Source: an uncultured Lachnospiraceae bacterium (GTDB taxonomy: Bacteria; Bacillota; Clostridia; Lachnospirales; Lachnospiraceae). Taken from it: a stretch of DNA of 10,926 nt. The notes under the pieces were generated by a model. The model was not told the origin of the DNA. It saw nothing but the letters and a program-made list of their open reading frames with translations, and did not search any database. The translations under genes were made by a program, and so were the position numbers. The stretch spans positions 1 to 10,926 of the forward strand of contig CAJOQO010000337.1 of the NCBI GenBank assembly GCA_905236545.1, in the 5' to 3' direction. Within the stretch, counting starts at the first letter, position 1. The number at the start of each line of letters is the position of its first letter. Positions 3,338 to 7,846 of the stretch are shown in pieces.

Positions 3338-5128
3338 TTATTTCCTGATTCCTATGGAATGAATCTGCGCTGCCGTCTCTCCTGTCCAGCCGGAGCCGGA
3401 AGGACGGATATAGATCTCGACCTTTGTGATCTTGCCGCGCTTTTTCCATTTTTTCAGATCCACGTACAGGGAATGCGGTACAGCGCACGGGATGGTGGCA
3501 GAAGCATCGAAATAATGCTTCGATCCGGACCACAGTCTCAGATAAACGACCGCTGACCCGCTGACCGAGCTGTTTACATAGATCCCAAAGCCGAACTTCG
3601 AACAGGTCTTGCAGTTGATCTTTCCCTTGCGGATGATCCCCCATGGCACATTCGCGTTTCTCGCATAATCGTGCGTCAGGGTATAAACCCCCTTCTCATA
3701 CTGGAAGCCGCTCAGCGCCCCGTATGCCTTGAAGCCTCCTGTATACGTCTTCTTCCAGGAAAGGTTCCTGATGGGGCTCAGTTTCCCGTTCGATACCGTA
3801 AAGAGCTTCTTTACACTCTTTCCGGAAAGCGTTTTCGCCTTTTTCGCGGCGTAGGTTGTGTAAGAATTCGTTTTCGTGGTGTCCGCATACTTGTAAGCTG
3901 TCCAGGAAGGCTTCTTATAAGCGGCGTTCTCCAGACCCCAGCTGGTGTACAGCCCGTATTTTTCCCCTTCTCCCGTATGGTCCACCTGGCGGTGCAGGAT
4001 CAGGGCATCCACCATGCTGTTCTGCTGGGCGATGTAATACGCCAGCGCAATGTTCCTTGCCTGCTCCTTTGAAGTATCCCGCCCTGCGGTAACCGATGAA
4101 TATCCCTGTTCGCTCAGGATAACCCTGCACTTTTTGGTATATTTTTTCTTTACATAATCCGTGAGCACCTTCAGATTCTTCATGGTGATGATGCGTGTGT
4201 CCGCCTTGTTGGTCACCGCGGCGCTGTTGCTGATGATGTTCGGCTCATACTGGCTGATATTGTATGGATGATAGGCAATGCACCAGGTTCCGTTTCCAAG
4301 GCCTCTGGCGGACATCCGTTTCGCGAAACGGGTCAGGATCTCTTTTCCCGGATACCAGTAGCTTCCGTTGGCTGCTGTCCAGTAGTGATCCAGACACATA
4401 TAGATCCGCGCATACTTGTAGACCTGGCGCGCTGCCCGGTACACCTGGGCAGCCTGCTCCGCATAAACGTCCACATAAGTATCGATGCCGACTTCTCCCG
4501 CCCAGTTCCATACGCCGGAGTTATTCACCTCATTTCCGACGATCCACCCGACGATGCGCGCTCCGGAAGGTCCGGCATATCTTCGCTGGAAAAAGGTAAC
4601 GATTGCCCTGAGCGCACGCACGGCGTTTTCATCGGTCATATTCCACTGGTAATAATTTGCGCTCTTTCCTAACGCCGGCGGGTAGATCAGGTACTGCATA
4701 TCATCGCTCCGGTAAGGAAGAAGCAGGATCGCCGTGACAAGGACCTTATTCTGGGCGAGCCGCAGCAGCTCCTCATCATATCGGCCCACCGCATCCTTTG
4801 CAAACCAGTAGGTCGTACCCTCATACTCAAAGGGGATACTGTACGTCTCGCTGCGGTAAGCTTCTGCGGGCATGAAATCGTTGACGCTGAGATTAATCGT
4901 CGCATGCTGTATCCCAAGGTCAACCGCGTCCTCCTCCATCCCCGGACAGACATACAGTCCCTTTTTGGTTATGGCTGCCGGATAAGCATGATTGTACTCA
5001 GCGGCACAGGCCGGAACCTGCATCAAAAGCAGAATTGCCGCAATCACCGCTGCCGCGGGAAAAAACCTGCTCCTTCCGAACCCTCTGTTCAATCTCTTTC
5101 CCCTTTCCTGCTCCGGATAATCCCTCAT
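3338..5128 (-). CDS. Secreted glycoside-hydrolase-like protein (DUF5722 type)
   Basis: The 596-residue protein has a basic N-terminus and a hydrophobic signal segment (about 22-42, ending PACAA|EYN). A TIM-barrel-like domain (about 50-415) follows, then a C-terminal beta-rich region (about 450-596) with repeated aromatic strands that resembles a carbohydrate-binding module. Two glutamates sit where clan GH-A glycosidases keep acid/base and nucleophile: E200 in WIVGNEVNN (end of strand 4) and E340 in VILSEQGYSS (end of strand 7). I recall this architecture as DUF5722; the substrate is unknown. C41 preceded by VPA is a poor lipobox, so a lipoprotein is possible but less likely. The annotated ATG at 5128 lies inside a 31-bp tandem repeat copied from the end of the sigma-factor gene. 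A TTG at 5092 (residue 13), preceded by AGGGGA, is a credible alternative that still keeps the whole signal peptide. The gene is followed 3 nt later by the DUF362 gene. Confidence 0.8.
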   Translation of the reverse strand: MRDYPEQERGKRLNRGFGRSRFFPAAAVIAAILLLMQVPACAAEYNHAYPAAITKKGLYVCPGMEEDAVDLGIQHATINLSVNDFMPAEAYRSETYSIPFEYEGTTYWFAKDAVGRYDEELLRLAQNKVLVTAILLLPYRSDDMQYLIYPPALGKSANYYQWNMTDENAVRALRAIVTFFQRRYAGPSGARIVGWIVGNEVNNSGVWNWAGEVGIDTYVDVYAEQAAQVYRAARQVYKYARIYMCLDHYWTAANGSYWYPGKEILTRFAKRMSARGLGNGTWCIAYHPYNISQYEPNIISNSAAVTNKADTRIITMKNLKVLTDYVKKKYTKKCRVILSEQGYSSVTAGRDTSKEQARNIALAYYIAQQNSMVDALILHRQVDHTGEGEKYGLYTSWGLENAAYKKPSWTAYKYADTTKTNSYTTYAAKKAKTLSGKSVKKLFTVSNGKLSPIRNLSWKKTYTGGFKAYGALSGFQYEKGVYTLTHDYARNANVPWGIIRKGKINCKTCSKFGFGIYVNSSVSGSAVVYLRLWSGSKHYFDASATIPCAVPHSLYVDLKKWKKRGKITKVEIYIRPSGSGWTGETAAQIHSIGIRK

Positions 5129-5196
5129 GCGTACTTTCCTGCTCCGGATAATCCCTCATGCGTACTTTCCTACTCCAGATAATCTCTCATGCGTAT
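5104..5196 (-). repeat. Three tandem 31-bp copies of the sigma-factor gene 3' end
   Basis: Three head-to-tail 31-bp units lie at 5104-5134, 5135-5165 and 5166-5196. The first two are identical; the third, which encodes the last residues of the sigma factor (MRDYLE and stop), differs from them at four positions, all transitions. In the two leftward copies the TAG stop reads CAG, so the frame stays open. Each copy carries, on the minus strand, an ATG and, after it, a GGAG-AGGAAAG purine stretch that acts as ribosome binding site for the ATG of the next copy. The ATG at 5128 opens the glycosidase; the ATG at 5159 opens a roughly 58-codon out-of-frame decoy. Confidence 0.95.
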
Positions 5197-6306
5197 ATTC
5201 TTGCGCTTCAGTTTTCTGAGCGCTTTCGCCTCGATCTGCCGGATACGCTCCCGGGTCACATTGAGCTGCCTGCCGACTTCCTCCAGGGTTCTGGAACGGT
5301 CATCGTCCAGTCCATACCGAAGTCTGAGCACCTGCTGCTCCCTCTCGGTCAGATCGGAAAGAATCTCCCGGATCTGCTCGCGCAGCATCGTCCTCGCCGC
5401 TTCATCGGCCGGATGAGGCGTCGTATCATCCCTGATGAAATCTCCCAGGGAGCTGTCTTCTTCATCTCCTACCGGCGTCTCCATGGATACCGGCTCTCGG
5501 GAGATTCTCTGAATCTCCCGGATCCGTTCCACAGGCATGTGAGCCTCCTTCGCAATCTCATCCGGGGTAGGATCCCTCCCCAGTCTCTGGACCAGCTCCC
5601 TGGCGGACCGGTTCACCTTGTTGATGTTTTCCACCATATGCACCGGGATACGGATCGTCCTTCCCTGATCCGCGATCGCGCGCGTGATGGACTGCCTGAT
5701 CCACCATGTCGCATAGGTGGAAAAGCGGAACCCTTTTTTATAATCGTATTTTTCGACTGCGCGGATCAGTCCCAGGCTTCCCTCCTGGATCAGATCCATG
5801 AGGCTCATTCCATGCCCCGTATAATGCTTTGCGATGGAAACCACCAGCCGGAGATTCGCTTCCTCCAGCTGTCTTTTCGCATCCTTATCCCCCTGCTCAA
5901 CCCGCTTTGCCAGTTCGATCTCCTGGTCGGAAGTCAGCAGGGGAACCTGTCCGATCTCCTTCAGATACATATGAATCGGATCTGTTACATTCCCGGTATC
6001 GTGTTCCCGCTTCTCCTCCGCGGCAATTACATCATCATCAGGATTCTCTTCTTCCTCTTCAAGAAGAAGCCTGTCCTCGTCCTCATCGGGAGCAAGCTGA
6101 ATCTCGATTCCCTGGTTTGCTATCGTATCGATCGCCTGATCGAATTCCCGATCTGTCATTTCCAGATCATCACAGTAATCGGCGATCTCCTGAAAACGGA
6201 GGATCCCGTTCTCTTTTCTCGCCTCCTGTATCAGCGCATCGATGCGTTCTTTCAGATCTTTTTCCCGATCCGTCTTTTCAACGGAAGGAATTTCCTTCGT
6301 GTTCAT
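5170..6306 (-). CDS. rpoD: RNA polymerase sigma factor, RpoD (sigma-70) family
   Basis: The 378-residue protein directs RNA polymerase to promoters. A short region 1.1 (about 18-70) is followed by an acidic stretch (74-103), then region 1.2 starting [11 protein letters not shown] (109-119). Region 2 spans about 146-215, with [19 protein letters not shown] and [20 protein letters not shown]. Region 3 carries [11 protein letters not shown] and [10 protein letters not shown]. Region 4 (about 305-378) has the helix-turn-helix [27 protein letters not shown]. The extreme C-terminus is odd: the LRHPSRS segment nearly invariant in primary sigma factors is replaced by LKRKNIR, and the protein is about two residues shorter there. 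There is also no dnaG next door, the usual partner. It may be the housekeeping factor with a drifted tail or a group 2 paralogue. The ATG at 6306 follows AGAGG by 5 nt. Confidence 0.88.
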
Positions 6307-6315
6307 CCCTACCTC

Positions 6316-6405
6316 TTATCCATTCAGGAACGCCATCGGATCTCCTGGCGCCCGCTCCGGTTGATACAAACGTATGCCGTTCAGGGAGACGCTGAACCGA
6401 TTCAT
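6316..6405 (-). CDS. Possible 29-residue small ORF upstream of the sigma factor gene
   Basis: A 29-codon frame (ATG at 6405, TAA at 6316) fills most of the gap between the symporter and the sigma factor. It begins MNRFSVSLNGIRLYQ and ends DPMAFLNG. Roughly two thirds of its third positions are G or C, as in neighbouring genes, and AAGGA lies about 10 nt upstream, overlapping the symporter stop. It is in the same frame as the sigma factor, separated by TAA and three codons, and its stop abuts the sigma-factor ribosome binding site. No homology is recognised. It could be a coupled leader peptide, a relic of a longer N-terminus, or chance. Confidence 0.3.
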   Translation of the reverse strand: MNRFSVSLNGIRLYQPERAPGDPMAFLNG

Positions 6406-6418
6406 TCGCGGCGGATCC

Positions 6419-7846
6419 TTATTTCATCTGTTTCTCATTCGAACTCGATGACGGCGGAACCGTGCTGTCGTCGATTACCGGAATCGGCGTATCATCCCAT
6501 GCGTCCAGATCATTGATAAACCGCTTTGTATCCTTAACGATAACACCTGACAGGAACAGAACCGCGATCAGGTTCGGAATACTCATCAGTGCATTCAGAA
6601 TATCGGCAATCGTCCAGACCAGATTCAGCGCCGAAATCGGAGCAATGACAGCAACCGCGATATAGACACAGCGATACGCGACCAGAACCCTTTTTCCTCC
6701 GAGGTATTCCACGCATCGTTCCCCATAATAAGCCCATCCAAGCACTGTCGAAAACGCGAAGGTGATAATACCGATGGTAAGCAGGATCGGCCCGACATGC
6801 GGGATCTGTCCGAACGCCAGGCTGGTCAGCTTGCCGCCGTTATCGATCTGGCTGACATCAATCTGAGGGTTCTTCATAATGGATGTAACAAGAACAAGGC
6901 CTGTCATCAGGCAGACTACAACCGTATCCCAGAAGGTTCCTGTGGAAGCGATCAGCGCCTGACGAACCGGATTGCGGGACTGTGCCGCTGCGGCGGCGAT
7001 CGGCGCGGAGCCCATTCCGGATTCATTGGAAAACAGTCCGCGTGCGACGCCATACTGGATTGCCGCACGGATACCGCTGCCGACAAGACCGCCGGCCACA
7101 GCGCCCGGTGTAAATGCCAGACGTATGATCGCTCCGAACGCCGGAATAATAAAGTCATAATTGATGCACAGAATCACGATGCAGCCAATTACATAAAAGA
7201 CTGCCATAAAGGGAACCAGGCGCTCGCAGACACTTGCGATTGACTTGATTCCGCCGAAGATGACGATCGCCACCAGAACGCCTGTCACGACTCCGACCAC
7301 CCATGCCGGACAGTTAAAATTCTCATTTGCGACTGTGGCAATCGCGTTGACCTGTGTTGCGCAGCCGATTCCAAAAGAGGCAATCCCGCCAAAGATCGCA
7401 AACAGCACACCCAGCCACTTCATATTCAGGCCACGCTCCAGTGCGTACATCGCGCCGCCCTGCATACGTCCGTCCTTTGTCTTGACTCTGTACTTGACAG
7501 CGATCAGAGATTCCGCGTACTTGGTCGCGATCCCGAACACGCCGGTCAGCCAGCACCACAGCACGGCACCCGGTCCGCCAAGGGCAATCGCGGTTCCGAC
7601 GCCGATGATATTGCCGGTTCCGATCGTTGCCGCCAGAGCTGTAGTCAGTGCGCCGAAGGAAGAAACCTCTCCCTCTGCGTCAGGATCCTTTGAAACGGAC
7701 AGCCTGATCCCCTTGCTCAATGTTTTTCTCTGGATAAACCCGGTCCGGATCGTCATAAAAATATGAGTTCCGAGCAGCAGAATGATCATCCACCACCCCC
7801 AGACAAAGCTGTCCACTGAATCAATGAAAGCAACTACCTTCTCCAT
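6419..7846 (-). CDS. Sodium:alanine/glycine symporter, AGCS family
   Basis: The 475-residue membrane protein belongs to the AGCS family, which imports alanine or glycine with sodium or protons. About 10-11 hydrophobic helices are visible. Signature segments are ALAATIGTGNIIGVGTAIALGGPGAVLWCWLTGVFG (shown in part: ATIGTGNI at about 73-80, GGPGAVLW at 90-97), GGAMYALERGL (130-140), and RGLFSNESGMGSAPIAAAAA (269-288), all close to family consensus. Sequence length is normal. The C-terminal 30 residues are hydrophilic and rich in D, P and S and should be cytoplasmic. The ATG at 7846 was chosen because GGAGGAA lies 7 nt upstream; a TTG at 7861 would place the ribosome binding site inside the gene. 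It has its own promoter, and no terminator is seen before the sigma-factor gene, so read-through into it is possible. The exact amino acid carried cannot be decided. Confidence 0.95.
   Translation of the reverse strand: MEKVVAFIDSVDSFVWGWWMIILLLGTHIFMTIRTGFIQRKTLSKGIRLSVSKDPDAEGEVSSFGALTTALAATIGTGNIIGVGTAIALGGPGAVLWCWLTGVFGIATKYAESLIAVKYRVKTKDGRMQGGAMYALERGLNMKWLGVLFAIFGGIASFGIGCATQVNAIATVANENFNCPAWVVGVVTGVLVAIVIFGGIKSIASVCERLVPFMAVFYVIGCIVILCINYDFIIPAFGAIIRLAFTPGAVAGGLVGSGIRAAIQYGVARGLFSNESGMGSAPIAAAAAQSRNPVRQALIASTGTFWDTVVVCLMTGLVLVTSIMKNPQIDVSQIDNGGKLTSLAFGQIPHVGPILLTIGIITFAFSTVLGWAYYGERCVEYLGGKRVLVAYRCVYIAVAVIAPISALNLVWTIADILNALMSIPNLIAVLFLSGVIVKDTKRFINDLDAWDDTPIPVIDDSTVPPSSSSNEKQMK

Follow-up and report, generated by a model that had tools for sequence, protein, structure and literature searches.

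In this stretch of DNA from an uncultured Lachnospiraceae bacterium (the window, 10,926 nucleotides), the end of a sigma factor gene is repeated in tandem just ahead of the next gene, which encodes a DUF5722 protein, and one of the repeats supplies an in-frame ATG. We asked whether the duplication has given the downstream gene a new start or whether the gene is still read from its old one. The features referred to below are as follows.

5170..6306, minus strand: sigma-70 (RpoD-like) gene, with Pfam Sigma70 r1.1, r1.2, r2, r3 and r4
5165..5195, minus strand: copy 1 of the 31-bp unit, holding the true end of the sigma gene, ATG AGA GAT TAT CTG GAG TAG
5134..5164, minus strand: copy 2 of the 31-bp unit, carrying the Shine-Dalgarno (SD) sequence that precedes the ATG at 5128
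5103..5133, minus strand: copy 3 of the 31-bp unit, whose ATG (5126-5128) opens a 596-aa frame
4998..5159, minus strand: out-of-frame ORF of 53 codons opened by the copy 2 ATG, overlapping the start of the DUF5722 gene
5098..5107, minus strand: SD-like GAAAGGGGAA for the TTG start, predicted at -8.1 kcal/mol with a spacer of 5
3338..5092, minus strand: DUF5722 gene from its putative TTG start, 584 aa, with a signal-peptide-like N-terminus and PF18989

A tandem duplication of the sigma gene tail

TRF placed the array at 5103-5195 on the minus strand, with a period of 31, 3.0 copies, a match of 95%, no indels, and a score of 165. The copies are adjacent, share one orientation, and keep a constant period, and the array is thus a tandem (head-to-tail) duplication. 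Across the three copies, 28 of the 31 columns are invariant. Copies 2 and 3 have the same sequence, which departs from that of copy 1 by three transitions, AGA to AGG, CTG to CCG, and TAG to CAG. The initial annotation had described three 31-bp units repeating the sigma tail and a TAG-to-CAG change in the two extra ones; the copy-by-copy comparison confirmed both points, with the coordinates (5104-5196) shifted by one base.

A chance origin was excluded by a shuffle control, since 200 first-order Markov copies of the window gave a maximum TRF score of 53 (rows of period at least 12) and thus never came near the observed 165. A dispersed element was ruled out as the source because the 26-base core of the unit, allowing up to three mismatches, is confined in the assembly to these three places. 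An Rfam RNA was rejected with no match in the window, and a sigma-70-type promoter was rejected with none detected in 4900-6500. No microhomology marking slippage was seen when the edges of the array were inspected by eye.

The sigma gene (5170-6306) passed the NCBIfam model RpoD_Cterm TIGR02393 (367 bits, cut-off 354) and fell below the cut-off of the full-length RpoD model PRK09210 (494.9 bits, cut-off 572). The same genome holds a second RpoD-like sigma gene (L074 1231-2418), and the gene adjoining it reads by eye like clpX.

Reading frames opened by the array

Because 31 leaves a remainder of 1 when divided by 3, the ATG of each copy falls in a different frame. The ATG of copy 1 sits within the sigma gene. 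The ATG of copy 2 (5159), ten bases past the sigma stop, opens the 53-codon ORF, which terminates at 4998 within the DUF5722 gene and had been overlooked in the initial annotation. The ATG of copy 3 (5128) opens a 596-aa frame beginning MRDYPEQERGKRLNRGFG. The TTG at 5092, preceded by AGGAAAGGGG, lies in the same frame 12 codons downstream and yields 584 aa. The array therefore contains a new in-frame start codon with an SD sequence upstream of the ancestral start, and the ribosome binding site previously placed within the preceding copy was indeed found in copy 2. The old start has not been lost, as TTG 5092 persists as a legal start codon with a stronger predicted SD. The predicted SD energies were -5.9 (5159), -5.8 (5128), and -8.1 kcal/mol (5092), all being simple duplex estimates with an anti-SD sequence taken from general knowledge and not from the 16S of this genome.

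Our gene caller chose 5128 as the start, and the same choice was made in P0001, a database protein that differs from that of the window by 3 residues and begins with the same MRDYPEQERGKRL. P0001 was seen as protein alone, not as DNA, and its longest contig is 3,286 bases; its independence is uncertain because it is listed without a source, as are the window's own proteins. The logic that makes 5128 a start would also make 5159 one, which is equally good and nearer the sigma stop but in the wrong frame.

The start position in orthologous junctions

A sigma–DUF5722 pair with a readable junction was found in ten other genomes of the same genus (G012, whose contig ends just past the junction, and G013, whose contig starts inside the DUF5722 gene, were left out), and the array was present in none of them. 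The alignment of the copies and the absence of the array from the orthologous place in these relatives support the earlier proposal that the extra sequence arose locally by duplication of the sigma tail.

The spacers from the sigma gene to the presumed start ranged from 13 to 129 bases in the ten relatives. In nine of them, an ATG lies exactly 50 codons ahead of the conserved GMEEDA, and in the tenth (G007) it lies 46 codons ahead. Three of the nine also have an ATG further upstream (G002 at 52, G014 at 54, and G015 at 60), and two have an upstream TTG (G002 at 62 and G016 at 52). The corresponding distances in the window are 50 codons for TTG 5092 and 62 for the array ATG at 5128. Among 49 listed family proteins (48 homologues and P0001), 18 have the modal length of 584 aa, which is the length from the TTG; the distance of 50 to GMEEDA occurs in 21, and seven, P0001 included, are predicted at 596-613 aa. 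Given the ATG 50 codons before GMEEDA in relatives and the family length of 584, we place the ancestral start at 5092.

The codon at the presumed start is ATG in all ten orthologues and TTG in none, so the TTG of the window is most simply explained by a later change from ATG. The initial annotation had put the ancestral start at a TTG at 5092; the place stands, and the codon was probably ATG. Single-copy relatives lacking the TTG start, which it had named as counter-evidence, are literally what the ten loci are, and it is the codon that differs and not the place.

One relative, G007, has an independent-looking adjacent repeat of 13 bases of its sigma tail, placed directly behind the sigma stop (L055), with TAA changed to CAG in the second copy. 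Its sigma stop region reads TTATCTGGAGTAA and then TTATCTGGAGCAG, an exact match of 10 bases that none of 200 shuffles equalled in length. No repeat stood out in the sigma tails of the other relatives among the 28 sigma loci tested, the window's included.

Which start the DUF5722 gene uses

We compared the n-regions that the two starts would give to the signal peptide. Starting at TTG 5092, the n-region reads MNRGFGRSRFF and contains no acidic residue ahead of the hydrophobic core. From ATG 5128, it comprises 23 residues, three of them acidic. An acid-free n-region was found in 37 of the 48 homologues. In the AlphaFold2 model the extension has a pLDDT of about 45, a value of little weight given that the extension is missing from most rows of the alignment. 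Position, family length, SD strength, and the make-up of the signal peptide all favour 5092, and it is quite likely to be the main start. The 12-residue extension MRDYPEQERGKR is most likely a prediction of the gene caller in the main, and at most a minor product. The earlier view of 5128 as the current start is therefore unsupported, as 5092 has the stronger SD, the modal length, and a normal signal peptide.

A different account, which is the view of the initial annotation with the codon history added, is that the start has been handed over. Initiation would now occur mainly at 5128, the former ATG at 5092 would have decayed to TTG under relaxed constraint, and sigma-derived DNA would have lengthened the n-region of the protein by 12 residues. 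Several observations are in line with this. ATG 5128 is in frame with its own SD (-5.8 kcal/mol), the stop is gone from both extra copies, the array and the ATG-to-TTG change belong to the same lineage (all ten orthologues have ATG), and the extension also occurs in a protein with three substitutions (P0001). TTG is normally much inferior to ATG as a start codon, and it accounts for 13 of 562 called starts in the sampled genome, where the caller penalises it. The change at 5092 on the array's own lineage might also be what is expected if constraint had been lifted. However, the stronger SD is still in place at the old site, together with a codon that can serve as a start. Of the nine possible single-base changes of ATG, only two produce GTG or TTG, and decay would thus more often have abolished the start. 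The extension would also bring three acidic residues into an n-region that is usually free of them, and arrays touching starts are few in this genome. We therefore consider a handover unlikely, and the claim that the locus records the origin of a start region is unproven, the takeover by 5128 being unsupported.

It is also conceivable that the array acts as a leader and both starts are substantially used, 5159 serving as a decoy ahead of two productive starts, with two N-terminal forms or a tuned translation as the outcome. The three serial SD-start modules, with their energies of -5.9, -5.8, and -8.1 kcal/mol, would suit such an arrangement. All ten related junctions do without such a leader, though, and the signal peptide would presumably be cleaved from both forms, leaving the same mature protein. 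This use of both starts seems improbable.

Predicted fold of the DUF5722 protein

The match to DUF5722 (PF18989) was strong, at 350.8 bits against a gathering cut-off of 30.5 (E 1.2e-104), and no PDB sequence matched the protein at E <= 10. The AlphaFold2 model, with a mean pLDDT of 91.7, predicts a glycosidase-like barrel and a beta domain. Foldseek returned 489 matches to this model at E <= 0.001, the best at 1.3e-12; the 50 matches listed are nearly all glycosidases by name, with TM scores by query length of only 0.29-0.41. N199, E200, and E340 (numbered from 5128) are invariant in an alignment of 34 DUF5722 sequences. The pattern of clan GH-A is a TIM barrel in which Asn-Glu follows one strand and another Glu sits at a strand further on. 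The Foldseek matches and the three invariant residues support a glycosidase-like fold for the DUF5722 protein. The label "glycosidase" in the initial annotation was only a guess. The literature search found no paper that names DUF5722.

Tandem arrays across the genome

Arrays were counted when TRF gave a period of at least 12, at least 1.9 copies, a match of at least 85%, and a score of at least 60. The sample of this genome comprised 120 of the 349 contigs (822,209 bp; C1-C119 and the window), with C7, C74, C79, and C93 covered for their first 20 kb only. Genes were called by a home-made codon-usage caller, which picks starts partly by codon score. We found 94 arrays, or 114 per Mb, compared with 15 in 293,003 bp of relatives (51 per Mb) and one in six 50-kb stretches (300 kb) of E. 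coli K-12 (3 per Mb). The counts for individual relatives were 12 arrays in 80,000 bp (G010), one in 40,343 bp (G002), and none in 20,000 bp (G005) or 15,441 bp (G009).

Seventeen of the 94 arrays, the window's included, span a stop codon, against 4.5 expected by random placement, and none of 1000 placements had as many. With a cruder earlier caller that missed the sigma gene, the corresponding figures were 11 and 4.1. In the 293,003 bp of relatives, the excess was not significant (2 of 15 arrays against 0.8 expected, p 0.165). In G010, three arrays span a stop, one of them also covering a longest-ORF start, and two of the three are already counted in the relatives' total.

We also compared the 58 arrays not wholly inside genes with placements that likewise avoided gene interiors. 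Here, 15 arrays covered only a stop (9.2 expected; 11 of 300 placements had as many), two lay across a stop as well as a start (3.7 expected), and one covered only a start (9.6 expected; none of 300 placements had as few). Stop-only and stop-plus-start arrays together numbered 17 against about 12.9 expected. "Edge" arrays, which lie partly in a gene and cover neither its start nor its stop, numbered four against 0.5. The stop excess is thus modest under this null, and the depletion at starts is the stronger signal, which may be overstated because codon-scored starts can be pushed out of arrays that look non-coding.

The periods followed the location of the array. Of the 36 intragenic arrays, 35 had a period divisible by 3, compared with 5 of the 15 that covered only a stop; in G010, one of four intragenic arrays broke this rule. 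This pattern also bears on whether the window's array could be an assembly artefact, with the copy number or the copies themselves wrong. The assembly is fragmented (349 contigs, 72% complete), and copies 2 and 3 are identical, two points in line with an artefact. Yet artefacts would not respect the reading frame as nearly all intragenic arrays of this assembly do, copy 1 differs from copies 2 and 3, and the same extension is present in the database protein with three other residues, whose provenance is unclear. An artefact is thus very improbable.

The stop-spanning arrays have periods of 14-47 and 1.9-8.3 copies. In the 11 of 17 that were inspected, the window's among them, the array starts either within the final codons of the gene or at its stop and extends beyond, copy 1 being the real tail of the gene. 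The codon at the stop position of later copies remains a stop in several arrays (for example L101, L133, and L170) and is altered in others. As copied stops are not generally lost, the TAG-to-CAG change of the window needs no special cause.

A simple rule would account for these patterns. A stop-spanning unit would leave the gene whole, because copy 1 completes it; an intragenic unit would have to stay in frame; and a start-spanning unit would plant competing starts and so be removed. The tolerance at stops, the in-frame intragenic arrays, and the scarcity at starts fit this rule.

Arrays at apparent starts and other repeats

Three arrays seemed to include a start, namely those of the window, L169 (13602-13643), and L178. 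For the window, a start inside the array is contradicted by the start position of the orthologues. In L169, a unit of 22 bp is duplicated across a stop and the point at which the following gene seems to begin, and the second copy has CGA in place of TGA. A start within this array is contradicted by all five close orthologues that were readable by motif, among 10 other genomes matched, since each has an ATG further downstream, at MF(D/E/G)RNYYG; in two of the five, a stop immediately upstream leaves no alternative start. For L178 the relatives are distant, and the best aligns from residue 24, beyond the array-derived part.

Further duplications of gene tails were observed at L170 15704-15791, L159 2841-2945, L101 2797-2904, L140 5995-6109, and L099 7995-8054. 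Among the gene-tail duplications are a tail YRNPA-stop in three copies, in a gene that reads by eye like purA, and, behind another gene, eight copies of a 14-bp unit. Tandem-repeat units that look alike by eye occur at L082 5638-5801, L126 51-155, and L188 2737-2841, and a second such family at L174 5-96, L179 65-112, L111 72-104, and L175 1-149. Unlike the gene-tail arrays, these two families are possibly dispersed intergenic elements.

Discussion

We favour, with reasonable confidence, the reading that this locus is a tolerated duplication of a gene tail with an over-extended predicted start, and that the array belongs to a class of stop-spanning duplications found across the genome. A 31-bp stretch straddling the sigma stop would have been duplicated in tandem, presumably by replication slippage or unequal recombination. 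The extra copy would have drifted by three transitions, losing its stop, and the drifted copy would then have been duplicated again, an order suggested by the identity of copies 2 and 3. Such a duplication would be tolerated, since the sigma gene is still completed by copy 1. It would have displaced the DUF5722 gene by 62 bp and put two extra SD-ATG modules ahead of it, of which only the second is in frame. Translation of the DUF5722 protein most likely still begins at the ancestral position, now TTG 5092.

Short tandem units attributed to replication slippage are familiar in bacteria as VNTRs or minisatellites, and the stop-spanning arrays found here are likewise short tandem units. Over-extended annotation, in which the predicted start lies upstream of the conserved one, is also well known; in this case, unlike the usual one, it was the duplication that opened the upstream frame.

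The sections of the Borg study on repeats describe scattered head-to-tail arrays, some beginning in gene ends, whose unit lengths are divisible by 3 within ORFs and mostly not in intergenic arrays, and discuss replication slippage for tandem repeats (PMC9879509). The arrays described here are similarly scattered, head-to-tail, and divisible by 3 inside genes, so arrays that begin in gene ends and follow the divisible-by-3 rule are of a kind already described (PMC9879509). Borg units are perfect and A-rich, and arrays were counted there with at least three units; in contrast, the stop-spanning arrays of the present genome are located on a bacterial chromosome, show matches of 87-97%, and in many cases comprise about two copies. 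The avoidance of starts relative to stops is not treated in those sections (PMC9879509), and no paper on it for short tandem arrays was found among the literature matches listed, which is weak evidence of absence. In the relevant parts of a study of Beggiatoaceae, TAACTGA direct repeats lie in the gaps between genes, in some cases running over the stop codon of the gene before, and repeat units of multiples of three are said, with reference to earlier work, to be likeliest inside coding regions (PMC4679880). Unlike the array of the window, TAACTGA is, as described there, one dispersed 7-base unit and no local copy of a gene tail (PMC4679880).

A bolder proposal is that the locus shows a handover caught midway, with the SD-ATG gained, the copied stop lost, and the ATG changed to TTG, and that stop-spanning duplications supply leaders and N-termini throughout the genome. 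We regard this as doubtful. If it were true, stop-spanning duplications, which also occur in at least one relative (G010), would feed downstream genes, and purifying selection would remove those covering working starts.

On the favoured reading of a tolerated gene-tail duplication, the locus is a warning that a duplicated gene tail can be called as the start of the next gene. The genome seems to hold many natural experiments on short tandem duplications at gene borders, and the pattern of stop-spanning, start-spanning, and intragenic arrays offers a way to measure how far gene borders tolerate duplication. If some of the array ATGs are used, such duplications would provide a simple and testable route to new bacterial N-termini and leaders.
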